This document shows positions 152 to 16,995 of a stretch of 41,482 bases of DNA, in pieces. The number at the start of each line of letters is the position of its first letter. Position 1 is the first letter of the stretch. The stretch lies in assembly GCF_001552675.1 (NCBI RefSeq), contig NZ_BCRQ01000020.1, positions 1 to 41,482 on the forward strand, in the 5' to 3' direction. A program made the translations under genes and the position numbers. Source of the DNA: Alicyclobacillus sendaiensis NBRC 100866. Its GTDB lineage: Bacteria; Bacillota; Bacilli; Alicyclobacillales; Alicyclobacillaceae. The notes under the pieces are model-generated. The model was not told where the DNA came from. It ran no database searches and was given only the letters and a program-made list of their open reading frames with translations.

Positions 152-180
152 TTGACACGGTCAGGATCTTTCTGTATCGT
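152..180 (+). promoter_or_regulatory. Probable sigma-A promoter of rpmH
   Basis: A perfect -35 hexamer TTGACA (152-157) and TATCGT (175-180) are separated by 17 bases. The start would fall near 187, about 27 bases before the rpmH ATG. The site adjoins the DnaA-box cluster, so DnaA binding could influence it; that part is inference. Confidence 0.8.
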
Positions 181-213
181 AGCTACGTGTGTCCGCACGG
201 GGGAGGTGTCTCG

Positions 214-348
214 ATGAAACCGACCTATCAACCGAACGTTCGCAAGCGGAAGAAGAACCACGGTTTCCGGAAGCGCATGGCGACAAAGGGCGGTCGTCGC
301 GTGCTGGCGCGCCGTCGCGCGAAGGGCCGTAAGGTGCTGTCCGCGTGA
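214..348 (+). CDS. rpmH: 50S ribosomal protein L34
   Basis: L34 is a small, very basic protein of the large ribosomal subunit that binds 23S rRNA. The 44-residue product has the family's usual length. It shows the typical MKPTYQPN start and the Arg/Lys-rich body with [15 protein letters not shown]. The ATG at 214 follows a GGGGAGGTG ribosome binding site (about 199-207). It is the first gene of the rpmH-rnpA-yidD-yidC-jag block next to the origin. A hairpin with a T-run directly after the stop probably reduces transcription into rnpA, which fits the need for far more L34 than RNase P protein. Identification is secure. Confidence 0.98.
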
Positions 349-2088: not shown

Positions 2089-2739
2089 ATGCGAAAAGTG
2101 GTGGCGACGGGCAAGACCATCGAAGAAGCGGTGATGTCAGCGCTTGTGAGGCTCGGGGTGCCGAGATCGCAGGCGCAGGTGCGGGTGATTCGGGAACCGG
2201 CTCGCGGATTTCTCGGATGGCTCGGCGGCCGAGAGGCGGAGGTCGAGGTGACGGTCATCGAGACGCCCCTCGACGCGGCGAAGGAGTTCCTTCGGACGGT
2301 TATCTCCAAGATGGGACTGGGGCAGGCCGTCATTGTCGCAGATGATGTGGATGAGGAAGGTCACGTGAAGCTGTCCATCTCGGCGGACGAGGACGCCCTG
2401 CCCATCCTCATTGGCCGGCGCGGTGCGACGCTGGACGCGCTTCAGTATTTGGTGAACATCGTGGCGAATCGGGACGCGGCAGAGAAGATGCGGTTCACGC
2501 TCGACGCGGCGGGCTATCGCGACCGCCGGCTGGAGTCGCTCCGGCGGTTGGCGGACGAGGCGGCGGACAAGGCGGTTCGGCTCGGAAGGCCCGTGGCGCT
2601 GGATCCCATGCCGCGAAAGGATCGCAAGTGGGTGCACGCGCACCTGCAGGCGAGAGGAGACGTCGTGACGGTCAGTGAAGGCCAGGAGCCGTACCGTCGG
2701 GTGAAGATCATTCCGAAGCGGCACGATTGGATCGAATGA
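2089..2739 (+). CDS. jag: RNA-binding protein Jag/KhpB
   Basis: Jag (KhpB, EloR) is an RNA-binding protein that works with KhpA and affects cell elongation and sporulation. The 216-residue product has a Jag-N domain (about 1-50, GKTIEEAV), a KH domain with the GRRG loop (about 109-112) and a C-terminal R3H domain with Arg179 and His183 in RKWVH. An in-frame GTG at 2062 would add nine residues. I prefer ATG 2089 because GGAGG (2074-2078) lies ten bases upstream and the conserved domain begins there. It follows yidC, the standard arrangement, and a terminator follows it. Confidence 0.94.
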   Translation: MRKVVATGKTIEEAVMSALVRLGVPRSQAQVRVIREPARGFLGWLGGREAEVEVTVIETPLDAAKEFLRTVISKMGLGQAVIVADDVDEEGHVKLSISADEDALPILIGRRGATLDALQYLVNIVANRDAAEKMRFTLDAAGYRDRRLESLRRLADEAADKAVRLGRPVALDPMPRKDRKWVHAHLQARGDVVTVSEGQEPYRRVKIIPKRHDWIE

Positions 2740-2766
2740 GGCGTCGAGGAGAAGATGTGAGACGAG

Positions 2767-2793
2767 AACCCCGCTCGAAGCAGTGGGGTTTTT
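2767..2793 (+). terminator. Intrinsic terminator after jag
   Basis: AACCCCGCT (2767-2775) pairs with AGTGGGGTT (2782-2790) through nine pairs, one of them G-U, followed by a short T-run. It closes the rpmH-to-jag block before mnmE. Confidence 0.85.
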
Positions 2794-2814
2794 GTGTAGA
2801 AGGGAGGGTGGCGG

Positions 2815-4212
2815 ATGGCGATGAAAGCTGTTGAACAGGAGGACACCATCGCGGCAATCGCTACGGCGGTGGGCGAGGCGAGCGTGGGCATTGTGCGAGT
2901 GAGCGGTCGCGGCGCGCGGGATGTGGGGGAGCGGCTGGTGAGATCGAAGCGAGGGGCTCCCGTGAAACTTCGCGAGCGAGGAATGCGGTACGGCCACGTG
3001 ATCGATCCGAAGTCGGGAGACGTGATCGACGAAGCGATTGTGCTGTGGATGCCAGGGCCGCACAGCTACACGGGCGAAGACGTGCTGGAGCTGCAGGTCC
3101 ACGGCGGCGCCTATGCGGTGGAGGCTGTGTTGTCCGCGTGCCTGGATGCGGGCGCGCGGATGGCTGAACCGGGGGAGTTCACGAAGCGCGCCTTTCTCAA
3201 CGGTCGCATGGATTTGTCGCAGGCGGAGGCCGTGATCGACCTCATCCGCGCCAAGACGGCGTTTGCCGGCAAACTGGCTGAACGGCAGGTGCGCGGGCGG
3301 TTCGGCGAGGCGATTCGCGCGCTAAGGCGGCGGCTGTTGGAACTCGAGGCGCACGTCGAAGTGACCATCGACTACCCGGAACACGACGTGGAAGACGTGG
3401 CTTGCGATCACGTCGTGCGCGTGTGCGACGATCTGATGGGCGAGATCGACCGGCTGATTCGCTCGGCGGAGCTCGGGCGAGTGCTGCGGGACGGCGTGGC
3501 TACGGCCATTGTTGGGCGTCCCAACGTGGGCAAGTCGTCGCTCTTGAACGCCCTGGTGGAGCGCGAGCGCGCCATCGTGACGGATCTGCCCGGCACGACG
3601 CGCGACGTGCTGGAGGAATACATCAACCTGCGCGGGATTCCGCTCAGGCTCATCGATACGGCGGGCATCCGCGAGACGGAGGACGTGGTGGAGCGAATTG
3701 GCGTGGCGAGATCGCGCCAGTCGATGCAGGACGCGGAGCTTGTGCTCCTGGTGTTGGACGGAAGCGAACCGCCGACCGAGGAGGACGAGGTCATCGCGCG
3801 CGAGTCGAGCGGATCGCGGAGGATGGTGGTGCTGAACAAGGTGGATTGCGGCATCCACCCGGAGGCGGCGCGATTTGCGGACGAGATGGCGCCGGAAGGG
3901 GCCGTGCGGGTGTCGGCGCGCGAGGGCATCGGCCTGGATGCGTTGCGGGACGCCATCGTCGATGCGATTCGCCGAGATCTCGCGGTCGATCTCGACGCCA
4001 GTTACATGGCGAACCACCGCCAGAAGCGGCTCTTGGAAGAGGCGAAGGAGGACCTGCGCACGGCGCGGGACGCGGCGCGCGCGGGGGAGACTCTCGATTT
4101 GGTGGCTGTGGCGCTTCAGTCGGCGTATGAAAAACTTGGAGAGACCATCGGCGAAGAGGCCGGGGAGGATCTGTTGAACGAGATCTTTTCCCGCTTCTGC
4201 CTGGGCAAATGA
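2815..4212 (+). CDS. mnmE: tRNA modification GTPase MnmE
   Basis: MnmE works with MnmG to put the 5-carboxymethylaminomethyl group on the wobble uridine (U34) of certain tRNAs. The 465-residue product has the usual length. It contains an N-terminal tetrahydrofolate-binding domain, a helical domain, and an inserted GTPase domain with G1 GRPNVGKSS (234-242), [16 protein letters not shown] and NKVD. It ends in FCLGK, which carries the catalytic cysteine of the C-terminal C(I/L/V)GK motif. GGGAGGG lies just before ATG 2815; a second ATG two codons later is possible. mnmG follows after 16 bases. Confidence 0.97.
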
Positions 4213-4228: not shown

Positions 4229-6115
4229 ATGCGGTTTTTCGCCGGATCGTATGACGTGATCGTCATCGGGGGCGGCCACGCGGGATGTGAAGCGGCGCTC
4301 GCGGCGGCGCGCATGGGCTGCCGAACGCTACTTCTGACCATCAACTTGGACACCATCGCGTACATGCCCTGCAATCCGTCGATTGGCGGGCCTGCGAAGG
4401 GTATTGTCGTGCGCGAGGTGGATGCGCTCGGTGGACAGATGGGGAAAAACACGGACGCCACCTACATTCAGATGCGCATGCTGAACACCGGCAAGGGGCC
4501 GGCGGTGCAGGCGTTGCGGGCGCAGGCGGATAAGGCGTACTACGCCCTGAACATGAAGTGGACGCTCGAGCGGACGGACAACCTTCACCTGAAACAGGGA
4601 CTGGTGGAGGAGCTGCTCGTCCGGAACGGTCGAATCTACGGGGTGGTGACGAAGAGCGGTCAGGAGTTTCACGCGCAAGCGGTGGTGCTCACCACCGGCA
4701 CCTATCTCCGCGGGCGCATCTACATCGGCGAAGTGTCGTATGAAAGCGGCCCGAACGGCCAGATGCCGGCCATCCGCCTGTCGGATTGCCTGGTCGATCT
4801 CGGCTTCCGCTTGGTGCGATTCAAGACCGGCACGCCGCCTCGTATCAACAAGAACTCCATCGATTTCAGCAAATTGATCGCCCAGCCCGGCGATCCCGTC
4901 CCGCGCCACTTTTCCTTCGATCCGGACACGCCAGTGCGGGAACAGGTGCCGTGCTGGCTGACCGGCACCACGGAGGAGACCCATCGCATCATCCTGGAGA
5001 ACTTGCACCGGTCGCCGCTTTACAGCGGCGAGATCAAGGGAACGGGCCCGCGCTACTGCCCCTCCATCGAAGACAAGGTCGTGCGCTTTCGGGATCGCGA
5101 CACACACCAGATCTTCCTCGAGCCGGAGGGTCCGCACACGAGCGAGTGGTACGTGCAAGGGCTGTCGACGAGCCTGCCGGAGGACGTGCAGTTGAAAATC
5201 CTGCACTCCATTCCCGGCCTGGAGCGCGCGGAAATGCTGCGCCCCGGCTACGCCATTGAGTACGACGCGGTGATCCCCACGCAGTTGTGGCCGACGCTTG
5301 AGACGAAGCTCGTGGAAGGGCTGTTTACCGCCGGCCAGCTGAACGGAACCTCCGGGTACGAAGAGGCAGCGGGTCAGGGCATCATGGCCGGCATCAATGC
5401 GGCGCGAAAGGTGAAGGGTGAGGAGCCAGTGGTGTTGTCGCGATCGGACGCGTACATCGGCGTGATGATTGACGATCTCGTCACCAAGGGAACGAACGAG
5501 CCGTATCGGCTTCTTACCTCTCGCGCGGAGCACAGGCTTTTGTTGCGGCACGACAACGCGGATCTGCGGCTGACGGAGCTCGGCTATCGCATTGGCCTGG
5601 TGTCCGAGCGGGCCTACAGCCGGGTGATGCGCAAAAAGGAGGGCATTCAGGCGGAACTCGCGCGCCTGTCGCGCGTGAAGGTGAAGCCGCAGGACGTGAA
5701 CGGGCGCCTCGCCGAGTGGGGCTCGCAGCCCATCGAGTCGGGCATGAGCCTCGCGCAATTGCTGAAGCGGCCGGAGTTGTCGTACGAGCAGATTCGGGAA
5801 ATCGATCCGAGCGGAGGCGTCGAGATCGACCCCGAGGTGAAGGAACAGGTGGAGATTGAGATCAAGTACGCGGGCTACATCCGAAAGCAAAACGAGCTCA
5901 TTGAACGCCAGAAACGGCTCGAAGGCCGGAAACTGCCGGAGGATCTCGATTACATGCAGTTGACGGGCCTCGCGATGGAAGCGAGAGAGAAGCTGTCCCG
6001 CGTCCGGCCGCGCACGGTGGGGCAGGCCGCGCGGATTCCGGGCGTGACGCCGGCGGACATCTCCATCTTGCTCGTGTACCTCGATGCTCAGGAGAGGCGC
6101 GCTGCCCATGCGTGA
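4229..6115 (+). CDS. mnmG: tRNA U34 carboxymethylaminomethyltransferase subunit MnmG
   Basis: This FAD/NADH-dependent enzyme is the partner of MnmE in U34 modification. The 628-residue product shows the dinucleotide-binding GGGHAG at residues 14-19, the family signatures [12 protein letters not shown] and TGTYLRG, and the C-terminal [13 protein letters not shown] at 4223 is in frame, but the ribosome binding site GGGAGGT (4214-4220) is only two bases from it and eight bases from ATG 4229, so I chose the ATG. It sits directly behind mnmE and overlaps rsmG by eight bases, so the three genes probably form an operon. Confidence 0.97.
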
Positions 6116-13297: not shown

Positions 13298-13522
13298 GTG
13301 CCGGTCTCGTTTGGACTGGGCGACATTGTCCGGATGAAAAAACCGCACGCGTGTGGCGAAAACCGCTGGGAAGTCATCCGGATGGGGATGGACATCCGCA
13401 TCAAGTGTCAGCGCTGCGGGCATAGCGTTCTGATCCCGCGCTCGCGCTTTGAGCGGCTGATTCGCGCGGTTTTGGAGAAGGGGGGAACCGTCGGTGAAGG
13501 TGAAGACAGCGTGTCCGATTGA
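13298..13522 (+). CDS. DUF951 family protein (YyzM-like)
   Basis: This is a 74-residue protein with the DUF951 pattern: an N-terminal GLGDIVRMKKPHACGENRW, then RMGMDIRIKCQRCGHSVLIPRS. The cysteines in HACGENRW and CQRCGH (residues 19, 37, 40) suggest a small metal-binding beta domain. The function is unknown. Bacillus yyzM, from the same family, lies in the same region next to yyaF. The start is GTG 13298 with GAGGAGG upstream. Its end overlaps the start of the next gene by 29 bases, which indicates coupling. Confidence 0.88.
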   Translation: MPVSFGLGDIVRMKKPHACGENRWEVIRMGMDIRIKCQRCGHSVLIPRSRFERLIRAVLEKGGTVGEGEDSVSD

Positions 13523-15530
13523 CTGTTACGACGCGTGCGCGTTGGTGGCCGAGGTAGGGGAAGACGGCGAGATCTGCTTGAGCGGGAACCCCGAGCACCC
13601 CATCACGCGCGGGACCATCTGCAACCGCGGACGTCAGCTGGCGGTTCGCCGGAACAGCCGCGATCGCGTCCTTCACCCGCTCAAGCGGGAAGGGGACGCA
13701 TGGGTCGCCATTCCGTGGGAGCAGGCGCTGCGCGAGATCGCGGCCGAGGTGCGGCGGACGCTTGAAGAGGTGGGGCATCACGGCATTTTGCACTACTACG
13801 ACTGGGGCTCGGGTGGACTGCTCAAGTCCTTGAACCAGCGGTTCTTCTACGGGCTCGGAGGCTGTTCGGAGGCCGTCGGTAGCCTGTGCTGGGATGCGGG
13901 CATCCGCGCTCAGACGTACGACTTCGGTCAGGCGAACAGCCATGCGCCCGAAGATATGGCGAAACATGCCGAGGCCATCGTGGTGTGGGGCCGCAACGTG
14001 GCCAACACCAACGTGCACATGATCCCGTTCATTCGCGAGGCGCAGGCTCGGGGAGCGAAGCTCGTTGTCATCAGCGCTCTGCCGCAGGATTTGGCGCGGC
14101 GAGCCGACAAAGCCATCTATCCCCGCCCGGGCACGGATGGCCTATTGGCGTTGGCGGCGCTCCGCATCTGCCGCGATGAGGGCTGGCTGGATCGCGATTT
14201 CTTGCACCATCGAGCGGTGGGGTGGGAGGAACTCGCGCGGGATTTGGACCGGTACGATCTCGGCGAAGTGTCGCGGTGGACTGACGTTCCCGTGGAGGAC
14301 ATTCGGTTTTTGGCGGAGCTGTACGGGAAAACGAGGCCTGTCTGCACGCTGCTTGGCATCGGCATGCAGCGGTACGCACAGGGCGGACAGACCATCCGCG
14401 CCATCGACGCGCTCGCTGCCGCCACAGGCCACGTCGGCGTTCCTGGGGGTGGCGTGAACTACGCTCAGCGGCAACTCGGCCGATTTTACGACGAGGAGGC
14501 CATCACCCATCGCCGCGGGGCGAACGTGCGGGAGATGTTGCGGCCCACCCTGGCCGCGGATTTGCTCGCGGCCGATCCGCCAGTCCAGGTGATGTTTGTC
14601 ACGCGCAGCAACCCCGTGGCTCAGGTGCCGGACAGCGGCCGCCTGCGCGAGGCCATGGCTCAGATACGCTGCAAGGTCGTGATCGACACGTTCATGACGG
14701 CCACGGCGGAATGCGCGGATTACGTGCTGCCGTGCACCAACGTGCTCGAGGAAGAGGACGTGGTCTACACGACGATGTGGCACGACTGTGTCAGCTACGC
14801 TCGCCCCGTCGTGCCGCCGCGAGGAGAGGCCCGGCCGGAATGGCAGATTTTTCGCGATCTCGCCGCGATGCTCGGAAGACCCGAGATCATGGCGGGCGAT
14901 GTGGAGACCTGGATCCGGCATGCGCTGAAGCGGTGGCCGGAGGACAAGTTGGCGGAACTCAAGGAGCGAGGATTTGTCCGGCTCGACGTTCCGAAGGTGC
15001 CGTGGCAAGACGGGCACTTCCTCACGCCAAGCGGCAAGTTCGAGTTCGCCTCGTCGGTGGCGGCGCGCGACGGGCACGCCCCGGTTGCGCGAATTGAGGT
15101 GGGGCGGTTCCCGCAAGATGAAGGCTTGCCATACACGTTGCTCACCGTGCACCCGCGAAAGTGGCAGATGTCGCAGCGCGATACGCTTCCCGAGGCAAAG
15201 GGACCGTATCCCGTCGCGGAGCTGGGCTGGAATGTCGCGCAAGAGCGCGGCATCCAGGACGGGGACTGGGTGAGAGTTCGAAACAAGAAGGCGAGCGTGA
15301 TCGCGCGGGCTCGGGTTCAGACGGAGGGGCATCCGCGCGTCGTGAGGATGGAGATTGGATGGCACGGGCAGGGCATGACCCTGAACGACTTTACCTCGGA
15401 CGGTCTCGCTGATTTTGGAATCCAGGCGGCACTCTACGACTGTCTGTGCGACGTGGAGAAGGTCGCTTCGGTTCCCGATGATGAAAACGCGAGAGCGCCC
15501 AGGACGGAAGCTCTCGCGCAGCAGATGTGA
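13494..15530 (+). CDS. Molybdopterin-dependent oxidoreductase (YyaE-like)
   Basis: The 678-residue product belongs to the DMSO reductase/formate dehydrogenase family of Mo-bis-MGD enzymes. At the N-terminus Cys7, Cys11, Cys15 and Cys43 form a [4Fe-4S] site. Cofactor domains follow with VVWGRNVANTNVH, YPRPGTDGLLALA and VTRSNPVAQVPDSGRL, and a C-terminal molydopterin dinucleotide-binding domain begins near residue 530 (LLTVHPRKWQMSQRD). No Tat signal is present, so it is probably cytoplasmic. The substrate is not evident. The position between yyaC and ychF matches Bacillus yyaE. It starts at GTG 13494 behind GGGGGA, within the end of the DUF951 gene. Its last bases contain a hairpin that would terminate minus-strand transcription. 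Confidence 0.92.
   Translation: MKVKTACPIDCYDACALVAEVGEDGEICLSGNPEHPITRGTICNRGRQLAVRRNSRDRVLHPLKREGDAWVAIPWEQALREIAAEVRRTLEEVGHHGILHYYDWGSGGLLKSLNQRFFYGLGGCSEAVGSLCWDAGIRAQTYDFGQANSHAPEDMAKHAEAIVVWGRNVANTNVHMIPFIREAQARGAKLVVISALPQDLARRADKAIYPRPGTDGLLALAALRICRDEGWLDRDFLHHRAVGWEELARDLDRYDLGEVSRWTDVPVEDIRFLAELYGKTRPVCTLLGIGMQRYAQGGQTIRAIDALAAATGHVGVPGGGVNYAQRQLGRFYDEEAITHRRGANVREMLRPTLAADLLAADPPVQVMFVTRSNPVAQVPDSGRLREAMAQIRCKVVIDTFMTATAECADYVLPCTNVLEEEDVVYTTMWHDCVSYARPVVPPRGEARPEWQIFRDLAAMLGRPEIMAGDVETWIRHALKRWPEDKLAELKERGFVRLDVPKVPWQDGHFLTPSGKFEFASSVAARDGHAPVARIEVGRFPQDEGLPYTLLTVHPRKWQMSQRDTLPEAKGPYPVAELGWNVAQERGIQDGDWVRVRNKKASVIARARVQTEGHPRVVRMEIGWHGQGMTLNDFTSDGLADFGIQAALYDCLCDVEKVASVPDDENARAPRTEALAQQM
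15484..15518 (-). terminator. Minus-strand intrinsic terminator inside the oxidoreductase 3' end
   Basis: CGCGAGAGC (15488-15496) and GCTCTCGCG (15510-15518) form a perfect 9-base stem. Read on the minus strand, the stem is followed by TTTTC; on the plus strand no T-run follows. It would end transcripts coming from the gap at 15531-15894. Confidence 0.6.
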
Positions 15531-15584
15531 AAAACACCATGGGTGTGTCATGGGTATCCATTACAAGGCCGGTGGCACGCCCGA

Positions 15585-15701
15585 TCATGAAGCCATGGGA
15601 TACGCGCGGGCAGTCGAGACGGAGGCGCGCTTTGGCTCGCAGGCCAGCGCCTTGGGCGACAGTTTGCGAACGCGAAGGCGGCGCAAGAGCCGACGCAGCA
15701 T
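15585..15701 (-). CDS. Possible 38-residue basic peptide gene
   Basis: This is a hypothetical gene in the 364-base gap between the oxidoreductase and ychF. The minus-strand ATG at 15701 is preceded by AGGAGGTGA (15715-15707), an essentially perfect anti-SD match eight bases away. The 38-residue product starts MLRRLLRRLRVRKLSPKA, an arginine-rich stretch that could form an amphipathic helix, and ends ARAYPMAS. A sigma-E-like promoter lies about 75 bases upstream and a terminator about 65 bases downstream. I recognise no family. Small membrane-binding peptides such as SpoVM are known in the mother cell, but any such role here is speculation. Confidence 0.5.
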   Translation of the reverse strand: MLRRLLRRLRVRKLSPKALACEPKRASVSTARAYPMAS

Positions 15702-15740
15702 CGCTATCACCTCCTCTGATGATGAGTATTCCAACGGGGA

Positions 15741-15774
15741 GAACGTTTATCCGGACAGATGTCCCGGAACGTTC
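15741..15774. repeat. Interrupted 34-base inverted repeat
   Basis: The outer arms GAACGTT (15741-15747) and AACGTTC (15768-15774) enclose CCGGACA (15751-15757) and TGTCC (15760-15764). The element lies between the sigma-E-like promoter and the ribosome binding site of the 38-residue ORF. It could be an operator or a leader hairpin. Confidence 0.55.
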
Positions 15775-15783
15775 TGCATCCAT

Positions 15784-15811
15784 ATTGTATGCGCGCATTC
15801 GTACAACATGG
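15784..15811 (-). promoter_or_regulatory. Sigma-E-like promoter (minus strand)
   Basis: On the minus strand CATACAAT (complement of 15784-15791) equals the Bacillus sigma-E -10 consensus CATACAMT. Thirteen bases upstream, CCATGTT approximates the -35 KMATATT. It points away from ychF toward the small ORF at 15585-15701. Confidence 0.45.
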
Positions 15812-15833
15812 ACAAGAATTCTCCCCGACAGCT

Positions 15834-15862
15834 TTGTCGAGCTTCGGGTGAATCTCTATACT
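15834..15862 (+). promoter_or_regulatory. Probable sigma-A promoter of ychF
   Basis: TTGTCG (15834-15839) and TATACT (15857-15862) are separated by 17 bases. The start would lie near 15869, 26 bases before the ychF ATG. The -35 overlaps a small dyad CGACA/TGTCG (15826-15839). Confidence 0.7.
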
Positions 15863-15894: not shown

Positions 15895-16995
15895 ATGTCA
15901 CTTCAGGCTGGGATTGTCGGCCTGCCGAACGTCGGCAAGTCCACACTGTTCAACGCCATCACGAAGGCCGGCGCGGAGGCGGCCAATTATCCCTTCTGCA
16001 CCATCGATCCGAATGTCGGCGTCGTCGAGGTTCCGGACCCGCGGCTCCAGGTCCTCGCGGACATCGTCCATCCCAAAAGGATTGTTCCGACGGCCTTTGA
16101 GTTCGTCGATATTGCCGGACTCGTCAAAGGGGCCAGCCAAGGGGAGGGCCTCGGCAATCGATTTCTCGCTCACATCCGCGAAGTCGACGCCATCGTGCAC
16201 GTGGTGCGCTGCTTTGAAAACAGCGACATCACCCATGTCGCCGGCACGGTGGACCCTCTTCGGGATATCGACATCATCAACGTGGAACTGATCCTCGCGG
16301 ACCTGGAGACCGTCGCGAAGCGGCTGGAACGGGCTCGCAAGAACATGAAGAGCGGCGACAAGCGGTTCAAAATCGAAGTGGAGGCGCTCGAGCGCCTTCA
16401 AGCTGCGCTCGAGTCCGAGCGGCCGGCGAGATCGGTCGAGCTGAACGAGGAAGAAGCGGGCATCCTCCGGGATCTTCACCTGCTGACCGCGAAACCGGTC
16501 CTCTACGCCGCCAACGTCGGGGAAGATGACATCTTGGATCCGTCTTCGAATCCCTACGTTCAACAGGTGGAGGAGAGGGCGAAGTCTGAGGGCTCCGAAG
16601 TGGTAGTGGTGTGCGCGCAGCTCGAGTCCGAGGTGGCGGAGCTTGAGGGCGAGGACCGCGACGCATTTCTGCGCGATCTCGGCCTCGAGGAGCCGGGACT
16701 CCATCGCCTGATTCGCAAGGCGTACCAGCTGCTCGGGCTCATCACGTTTTTCACCGCGGGCGAACCAGAGGTGAGGGCTTGGACCATCCGCCGAGGAACG
16801 AAGGCGCCGCAGGCCGCGGGCGTCATCCACTCCGACTTCGAACGGGGCTTCATCCGCGCGGAGGTGGTCGCGTACGAGGATCTGGTCGCGGCGGGAAGCT
16901 TCCAGGCGGCTCGAGAACAAGGGAAGATCCGCCTGGAAGGGAAGGACTACGTGGTCCAGGACGGCGACGTGTGCTATTTTCGCTTCAACGTGTGA
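15895..16995 (+). CDS. ychF: Redox-regulated ATPase YchF
   Basis: YchF/Ola1 is a conserved Obg-family P-loop protein that hydrolyses ATP in preference to GTP and associates with ribosomes. The 366-residue product has the usual length. It shows the P-loop [14 protein letters not shown] (9-22), [22 protein letters not shown], the altered base-recognition segment NVGEDD in place of NKxD, and a C-terminal TGS domain ([20 protein letters not shown]). The reading frame is open far upstream of 15895, but the family N-terminus and GAGGTG (15884-15889) fix ATG 15895. It matches Bacillus yyaF just upstream of rpsF. Confidence 0.97.

Follow-up and report, generated by a model that had tools for sequence, protein, structure and literature searches.

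Results

Between ychF and a convergent yyaE-like gene of Alicyclobacillus sendaiensis NBRC 100866 lies a short open reading frame (ORF) on the minus strand, and its presence raises the questions of whether it is a gene, in which cell it would be expressed, and what its product would do. The window, meaning the whole stretch of DNA that was analyzed, is contig NZ_BCRQ01000020.1 at its full 41,482 nt. A preliminary description, made from the letters of the window, had listed a -10-like octamer, an inverted repeat, a ribosome binding site (RBS), an ORF starting with ATG, and a hairpin followed by a T-run, and all of these elements were found on the minus strand. Our comparative analysis makes it fairly likely that the locus is an undescribed, order-specific small-protein gene with a forespore-type promoter and its own terminator; its product may be a short-lived docking peptide. 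The features of the locus are as follows.

13494-15530, plus strand: convergent molybdopterin-oxidoreductase-like gene (the yyaE-like gene)
15518-15488, minus strand: putative terminator hairpin with 13-nt arms, one mismatch and a loop of 5, followed by the T-run TTTT (15487-15484)
15585-15701, minus strand: mini-gene ORF of 38 codons, ATG at 15701-15699 and TGA at 15587-15585, product MLRRLLRRLRVRKLSPKALACEPKRASVSTARAYPMAS; within it, a conserved head (residues 1-22), a variable tail and a C-terminal A/C/S dipeptide
15715-15707, minus strand: RBS AGGAGGTGA, with AGGAGG ending 8 nt upstream of the ATG
15732-15724, minus strand: putative -10 element GGAATACTC (family form GG(C/A)ANACTA) of the conserved promoter pattern
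15735-15743, minus strand: inner arm TTCTCCCCG of a long inverted repeat, within the mini-gene promoter spacer
15752-15748, minus strand: putative -35 element GGATA, separated by 15 nt from the nonamer of the -10
15784-15791, minus strand: CATACAAT, the sigma-E -10 of the preliminary description; not conserved and probably not a promoter
15819-15827, minus strand: outer arm CGGGGAGAA of the long inverted repeat, immediately upstream of the ychF -35
15834-15862, plus strand: sigma-A-like promoter of the divergent ychF
15895-16995, plus strand: ychF (TIGR00092, above cut-off)

The ORF overlaps no neighboring coding sequence, the terminator hairpin overlaps the final codons of the yyaE-like gene, and the inverted repeats sit upstream of the mini-gene RBS.

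Conservation and coding character of the mini-gene

Relatives of the peptide were sought with a profile (A1) built from 14 peptides and run against both families of the order. All 41 genomes of the first family, Alicyclobacillaceae, were found to carry one (best E-value per genome 3e-18 to 4e-7), and because of this the conservation is more than chance. When 61 genomes (the own genome and 60 relatives) were searched at the DNA level, the intergenic region proved alignable beyond ychF in several members of the genus, and scanning upstream of ychF repeatedly recovered this small ORF across genera, with a good RBS ahead of it. Where positions were compared, the mini-gene was divergent from ychF in 36 of 37 first-family genomes (35 by coordinate comparison and G031 via locus L088), the remaining genome, G026, being 62% complete. 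The peptides of A. fructus and A. mali are 97% identical to that of the window. The RBS is the same in the six close loci, the window's included, and a purine-rich RBS precedes the start in the upstream rows of aligned relatives as well. Over the first 22 codons, six lineages of the genus displayed 11, 4 and 21 variable sites at codon positions 1, 2 and 3, respectively. The whole ORF in the six closest loci was without a third-position excess (4, 3 and 5 variable sites), with six variable codons synonymous only and four not; in these loci the head hardly changes, whereas the tail varies freely. The earlier proposal of a minus-strand mini-gene was thus borne out by conservation, with the RBS kept and third positions most variable across lineages, and its ORF is translated as judged from the substitution pattern. 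Taken on these comparisons, the ORF is almost certainly a real coding gene. A structured RNA was considered in place of a peptide and rejected, as the window had no Rfam match and the fold of the transcript was no better than that of shuffles (z -0.82); the peptide is favored because of the coding pattern across lineages.

Three extra copies of the mini-gene were observed in genus g2; two of them adjoin sigK and are divergent from it, and the third is on a short contig. They are located as follows.

L093 (G030): peptide 3589-3702, plus strand; sigK 2594-3370, minus strand, intact, TIGR02846 above cut-off
L092 (G015): peptide 4309-4419, minus strand; sigK-like frame 4608-5261, plus strand
L091 (G030): paralogue MLRRLLRRLRLRRLFGKGLAAEVTEQKRSECA 158-256, plus strand; short contig with cas1

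In the sigK-like frame of L092 the match to SigK stops at about residue 152 of 217, which is suggestive of interruption by a skin-like element, and a neighbor on the L091 contig appears by eye to be cas4-like. Both the head and the CA end are retained in the sigK-side paralogues, a hint at redeployment of one and the same module.

In the second family of the order, 10 genomes were found to encode shorter basic peptides of 20-35 aa (e.g., MRRRWRALRDRIRKSRNILA) behind an RBS at the same place beside ychF. Profile A1 matched none of the 18 second-family genomes; profile A3, built from eight second-family peptides, matched 12 of the 18 at E < 1e-7, and a 13th genome, G043, gave a match at E 0.146 at the expected place. 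The five second-family genomes without a candidate include G038, which is 97% complete. From place, orientation, size and composition, we infer that the peptides of the two families share descent, their sequence similarity being low. Two class-wide scans covering 398 genomes returned no convincing member outside the order; seven marginal matches in other families (E 0.002-0.01) were judged to be chance, and the second-family model had no match in other families at E ≤ 0.001. A search of a plasmid collection with the region likewise gave no match. Presence of the peptide could not be linked to sporulation loss: the search for spoIIR missed it in second-family genomes G043, G051, G053 and G054 and in first-family genomes G030 and G064, and among these G030, G043, G051 and G064 carry the peptide. 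A second spoIIR match was observed in G016, G021, G029, G033 and G035, and a weak one in G037, G049 and G046.

Promoter of the mini-gene

The preliminary description had placed the gene under mother-cell sigma-E control on the strength of CATACAAT. This octamer was kept in only one of the five closest relatives (L006); with the window's locus counted too, two of the six close loci have it, while the position reads CATAAAAT or CATAGAAT in the other four. What is conserved is a promoter of forespore type that lies closer to the ATG by about 60 nt: its GGATA and GGAATACTC, and likewise the RBS AGGAGGTGA, do not differ among the six close loci. The -10 element GGAATACTC lies 22 nt upstream of the ATG in the window, giving a predicted leader of about 16 nt.

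The pattern GGATA-N15-GG(C/A)ANACTA recurs over 47 rows, which are the distinct upstream regions among the loci supplied. Eight loci gave no row, including L029 (second family), L085 (found later) and the first-family L073, whose peptide was missed by the search pattern owing to Arg at position 11. In a scan of the 47 rows that took few -35 forms and spacers of 13-17, and that gave no site in five rows, 35 rows scored at least 11; of these, 33 have a spacer of exactly 15 and two a spacer of 16. A search for the exact pattern in the own genome was not informative, there being no enrichment (6 matches vs 4 in the reversed control).

For comparison of sigma factors, spoIIR, the SASP genes and gpr of the same family were examined. 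The clear SASP promoters of the family have TCATA or GCATA, a spacer of N15 or N16, and a nonamer whose last seven bases are CATACTA, CATAATA or CACACTA; in the own genome, one SASP gene (L171) reads GCATA-N15-GTCACACTA. The family spoIIR promoters mostly have GTTTA with a 16-nt gap. No clear shared promoter site was found upstream of gpr, which was left out of the models. It was observed by eye that an inverted repeat, CCTATCA.../...TGATAGG, flanks the -10 of family spoIIR promoters (e.g., L131 and L138) and is operator-like.

Models built from these sites were scored against shuffles, using all 47 rows or 27 lineages (one row per sub-lineage, chosen by us). A SASP model of 14 sites, which we picked from 30 SASP loci with unclear ones dropped, reached p ≤ 0.05 in 38 of 47 rows and 21 of 27 lineages; it was missed in L020, L023, L058, L067, L077 and L079. 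At the same threshold, the spoIIR-type sigma-F model was found in 10 rows and 6 lineages, and the sigma-A model in 2 rows and 1 lineage. As the scan of the SASP loci itself favored forespore-like sites, a strict SASP model keeps nine sites; with it, 15 of the 27 lineages were detected, three of them at p ≤ 0.01, compared with 0 of 24 for the upstream regions of ychF (the sequences obtained from the 27 loci) and 1 of 27 for the region 70-140 nt upstream. Outside the 27 lineages, G029 has no such promoter site by eye.

These results make it likely, on sequence grounds, that the mini-gene has a forespore promoter. Both the forespore-type promoter elements and the 15-nt spacing of a sigma-G or sigma-F regulon are present. 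Sigma-F alone, as modeled from spoIIR, was a weaker fit (6 of 27 lineages) and was set aside; 15 nt is given as the commoner sigma-F spacing in PMC5942855. The -35 element GGATA is unlike the GCATA/TCATA of SASP genes. Sigma-G is the best fit among the forespore sigma factors, and sigma-F is possible. Because the conserved promoter resembles the SASP (sigma-G) promoters of the family, expression is probably in the forespore and not in the mother cell. The tie to sporulation that had been suggested for the locus therefore probably holds, with a SASP-type promoter in 15 of 27 lineages by the strict model, in a compartment other than the one proposed.

Two other assignments were weighed. The elements can also be read as TGGATA-N17-CANACT, a weak sigma-A promoter of a vegetative gene, in agreement with the N17 spacing and with a TATAAT found at the corresponding position in a single genome of the second family (L077); we regard this as improbable, since matches to sigma-A equal those of shuffles (1 of 27 lineages) and the first base of the -10 is C or A, not T, in nearly all rows. 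The original proposal of a mother-cell sigma-E peptide, for which CATACAAT is a good -10 in the window by the consensus the preliminary description gives, is rejected as very improbable, as that octamer is not conserved among the close loci and the other promoter elements are found in all of them.

Terminator and inverted repeats

A hairpin with a T-rich stretch was detected within 117 nt of the stop codon in 31 of 47 rows, comprising 30 of 39 first-family rows (some weak) and one of eight second-family rows. The first-family rows without one are L007, L012, L028, L030, L058, L065, L071, L074 and L088. In the first family the mini-gene probably forms a monocistronic unit, and the RBS and terminator of its own that had been claimed for it were both found on the minus strand.

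The arms of the long inverted repeat (15735-15743 and 15819-15827) are 9 nt long and about 70 nt apart, reaching from the mini-gene spacer to the ychF -35. Repeats of differing arm sequence at equal distance were observed in L009/L010 and L015; p ≤ 0.05 was reached in 6 of 26 rows tested, all within the genus, and no consensus RNA structure was found for the repeat. It is possibly an operator shared by the mini-gene and ychF. A palindrome at 15751-15767 (minus strand CCGGGACATCTGTCCGG) overlaps the -35 and is identical in the six close loci save for its first base.

Anatomy of the peptide

The conservation table is made up of 37 distinct first-family and seven second-family peptides. Among the former, M1, L5, R7, L9 and A20 are invariant; L2, R4, R12, L14 and L19 are nearly so; and K and R interchange at positions 3, 8, 10, 13 and 17. 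Arg was found at position 7 in 37 of 37 and at position 12 in 36 of 37. Net charge was +8 to +11 in the eight peptides computed. AlphaFold2, given nine sequences (the window's and those of named loci), predicted a helix over residues 2-11 (pLDDT 83 over residues 1-10), a short second helix at 16-19 and an unstructured tail, at a mean pLDDT of only 65. Six column ranges were examined for hydrophobic moment. Columns 1-10 (mean 0.60, fraction of column permutations 0.043) and marginally columns 2-10 (0.051) lend weak support to the amphipathic helix suggested in the preliminary description; the other four (1-11, 1-14, 1-18 and 5-18) are unremarkable. In the seven second-family peptides, columns 1-14 gave a permutation fraction of 0.039.

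First-family peptides are 36-41 aa overall, and their tails differ in both sequence and length. The last two residues, by comparison, are only A, C or S in all 37 distinct peptides, which come from related genomes and hence are not independent (CA 17, AS 16, SA 3 and AC 1); elsewhere in the tail the A/C/S content is 22.6%. The combination AA does not occur (0 of 37). Codons for this pair vary (GCN, TCN, AGC and TGY) and all three stops occur; therefore, selection acts on the protein. The peptide of G029, which is outside the table, ends in CA, as do the three paralogues. As a rule, the A/C/S end is not shared by the seven tabulated second-family peptides. Searches of Pfam-A (four members, E up to 5) and NCBIfam (four members) returned no families and a PDB search with the peptide no match; 26 members searched against PHROGs gave five families, all at E 0.15 or worse.

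Possible functions of the peptide

The reading we put forward has the following steps: (i) a small-protein gene would be transcribed alone in the forespore from a sigma-G (possibly sigma-F) promoter; (ii) the cationic head, a short helix of residues 2-11 that carries the invariant L5, R7 and L9, would dock on an anionic or protein surface; (iii) the unconstrained tail would display the small-residue C-terminus; and (iv) a Clp-type protease would recognize this C-terminus, making the peptide, perhaps with a bound partner, short-lived. A docking peptide with a C-terminal degron is offered tentatively, by analogy.

Precedents for such a C-terminus are at hand. The tmRNA (ssrA) tags of the family end in ALAA in 19 of the 20 loci scanned (of 30), whereas the mini-gene pair is never AA; for L261, ARAGORN gives an atypical tag ending in VRAA, which may be an ordinary tmRNA read at the wrong place. 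CmpA is a small protein of the mother-cell compartment under sigma-E. In PMC5506225, CmpA is described as a ClpX adaptor in B. subtilis sporulation that mediates degradation of the coat protein SpoIVA, with its own turnover under Clp protease control, and the C-terminal LCN of SpoIIAB as targeting that protein to ClpCP. The likeness to CmpA, a sporulation protein with Clp-controlled turnover, is a proposed analogy, as for the mini-gene peptide only the selected C-terminal dipeptide is shown. As with SpoIIAB, a short C-terminus would set stability; the residues differ, and here they are known from sequence. An extension of the docking peptide to an order-specific forespore adaptor, whose head would capture a partner and whose A/C/S end would deliver it to ClpXP or ClpCP, is conceivable by analogy and rather doubtful.

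Equally likely as the docking peptide is a spore-core protein resembling the minor SASPs, a basic sigma-G product that would accumulate and coat DNA or ribosomes; this too is held tentatively. The α/β-type and minor SASPs likewise are small and basic, and the promoter type is common to the SASPs of the same genomes; the charge of +8 to +11 and the Arg residues at positions 7 and 12 fit as well. Yet four members had no Pfam match, SASPs (PF00269) included, and the peptide is shorter, with an Arg/Leu head and a conserved C-terminal dipeptide. Bulk coating of DNA would leave the Leu-rich head and the selected pair unexplained.

Less likely is a membrane peptide that would act from the forespore side as the equivalent of SpoVM, its amphipathic helix bound to the acidic inner forespore membrane. 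SpoVM is a coat-anchoring amphipathic peptide of the mother cell under sigma-E, and it has a family model in Pfam/NCBIfam. Both are tiny peptides with a short helix, and the predicted helix and the moments of columns 1-10 in the first family and 1-14 in the second are consistent with membrane binding. The mini-gene, unlike SpoVM, has a forespore-type promoter, the sigma-E -10 being present in two of six close loci, and its peptide is far more cationic and without a family match in four members. Moreover, the moments of columns 1-14 and 1-18 in the first family were not significant, our helical-wheel reading puts R12 and K13 on the hydrophobic face, and Arg is strict at R7 and R12, whereas for lipid binding Lys should be acceptable too. 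By its proposed working, the mini-gene peptide is like the tiny sporulation proteins; by membership, it is a family of its own.

Significance

A full-text literature search returned no paper on the mini-gene, as judged by title or the start of the abstract. Alicyclobacillaceae are described in PMC3533761 as without some sporulation genes (gerM, sda, spoIIB and others), and because known sporulation genes are missing there, lineage-specific sporulation factors would be no surprise in this family. If the adaptor reading is true, the peptide would play in the forespore the part that CmpA plays elsewhere, and no relative of it was detected in the sampled rest of the class. The peptide may also provide a test case for whether short C-terminal signals generally limit the lifetime of sporulation peptides. 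A gene that all examined genomes of a spore-forming family carry, and whose promoter, RBS, head and C-terminus are conserved, likely matters to sporulation or dormancy, and the mini-gene would offer a tractable, lineage-specific forespore factor.
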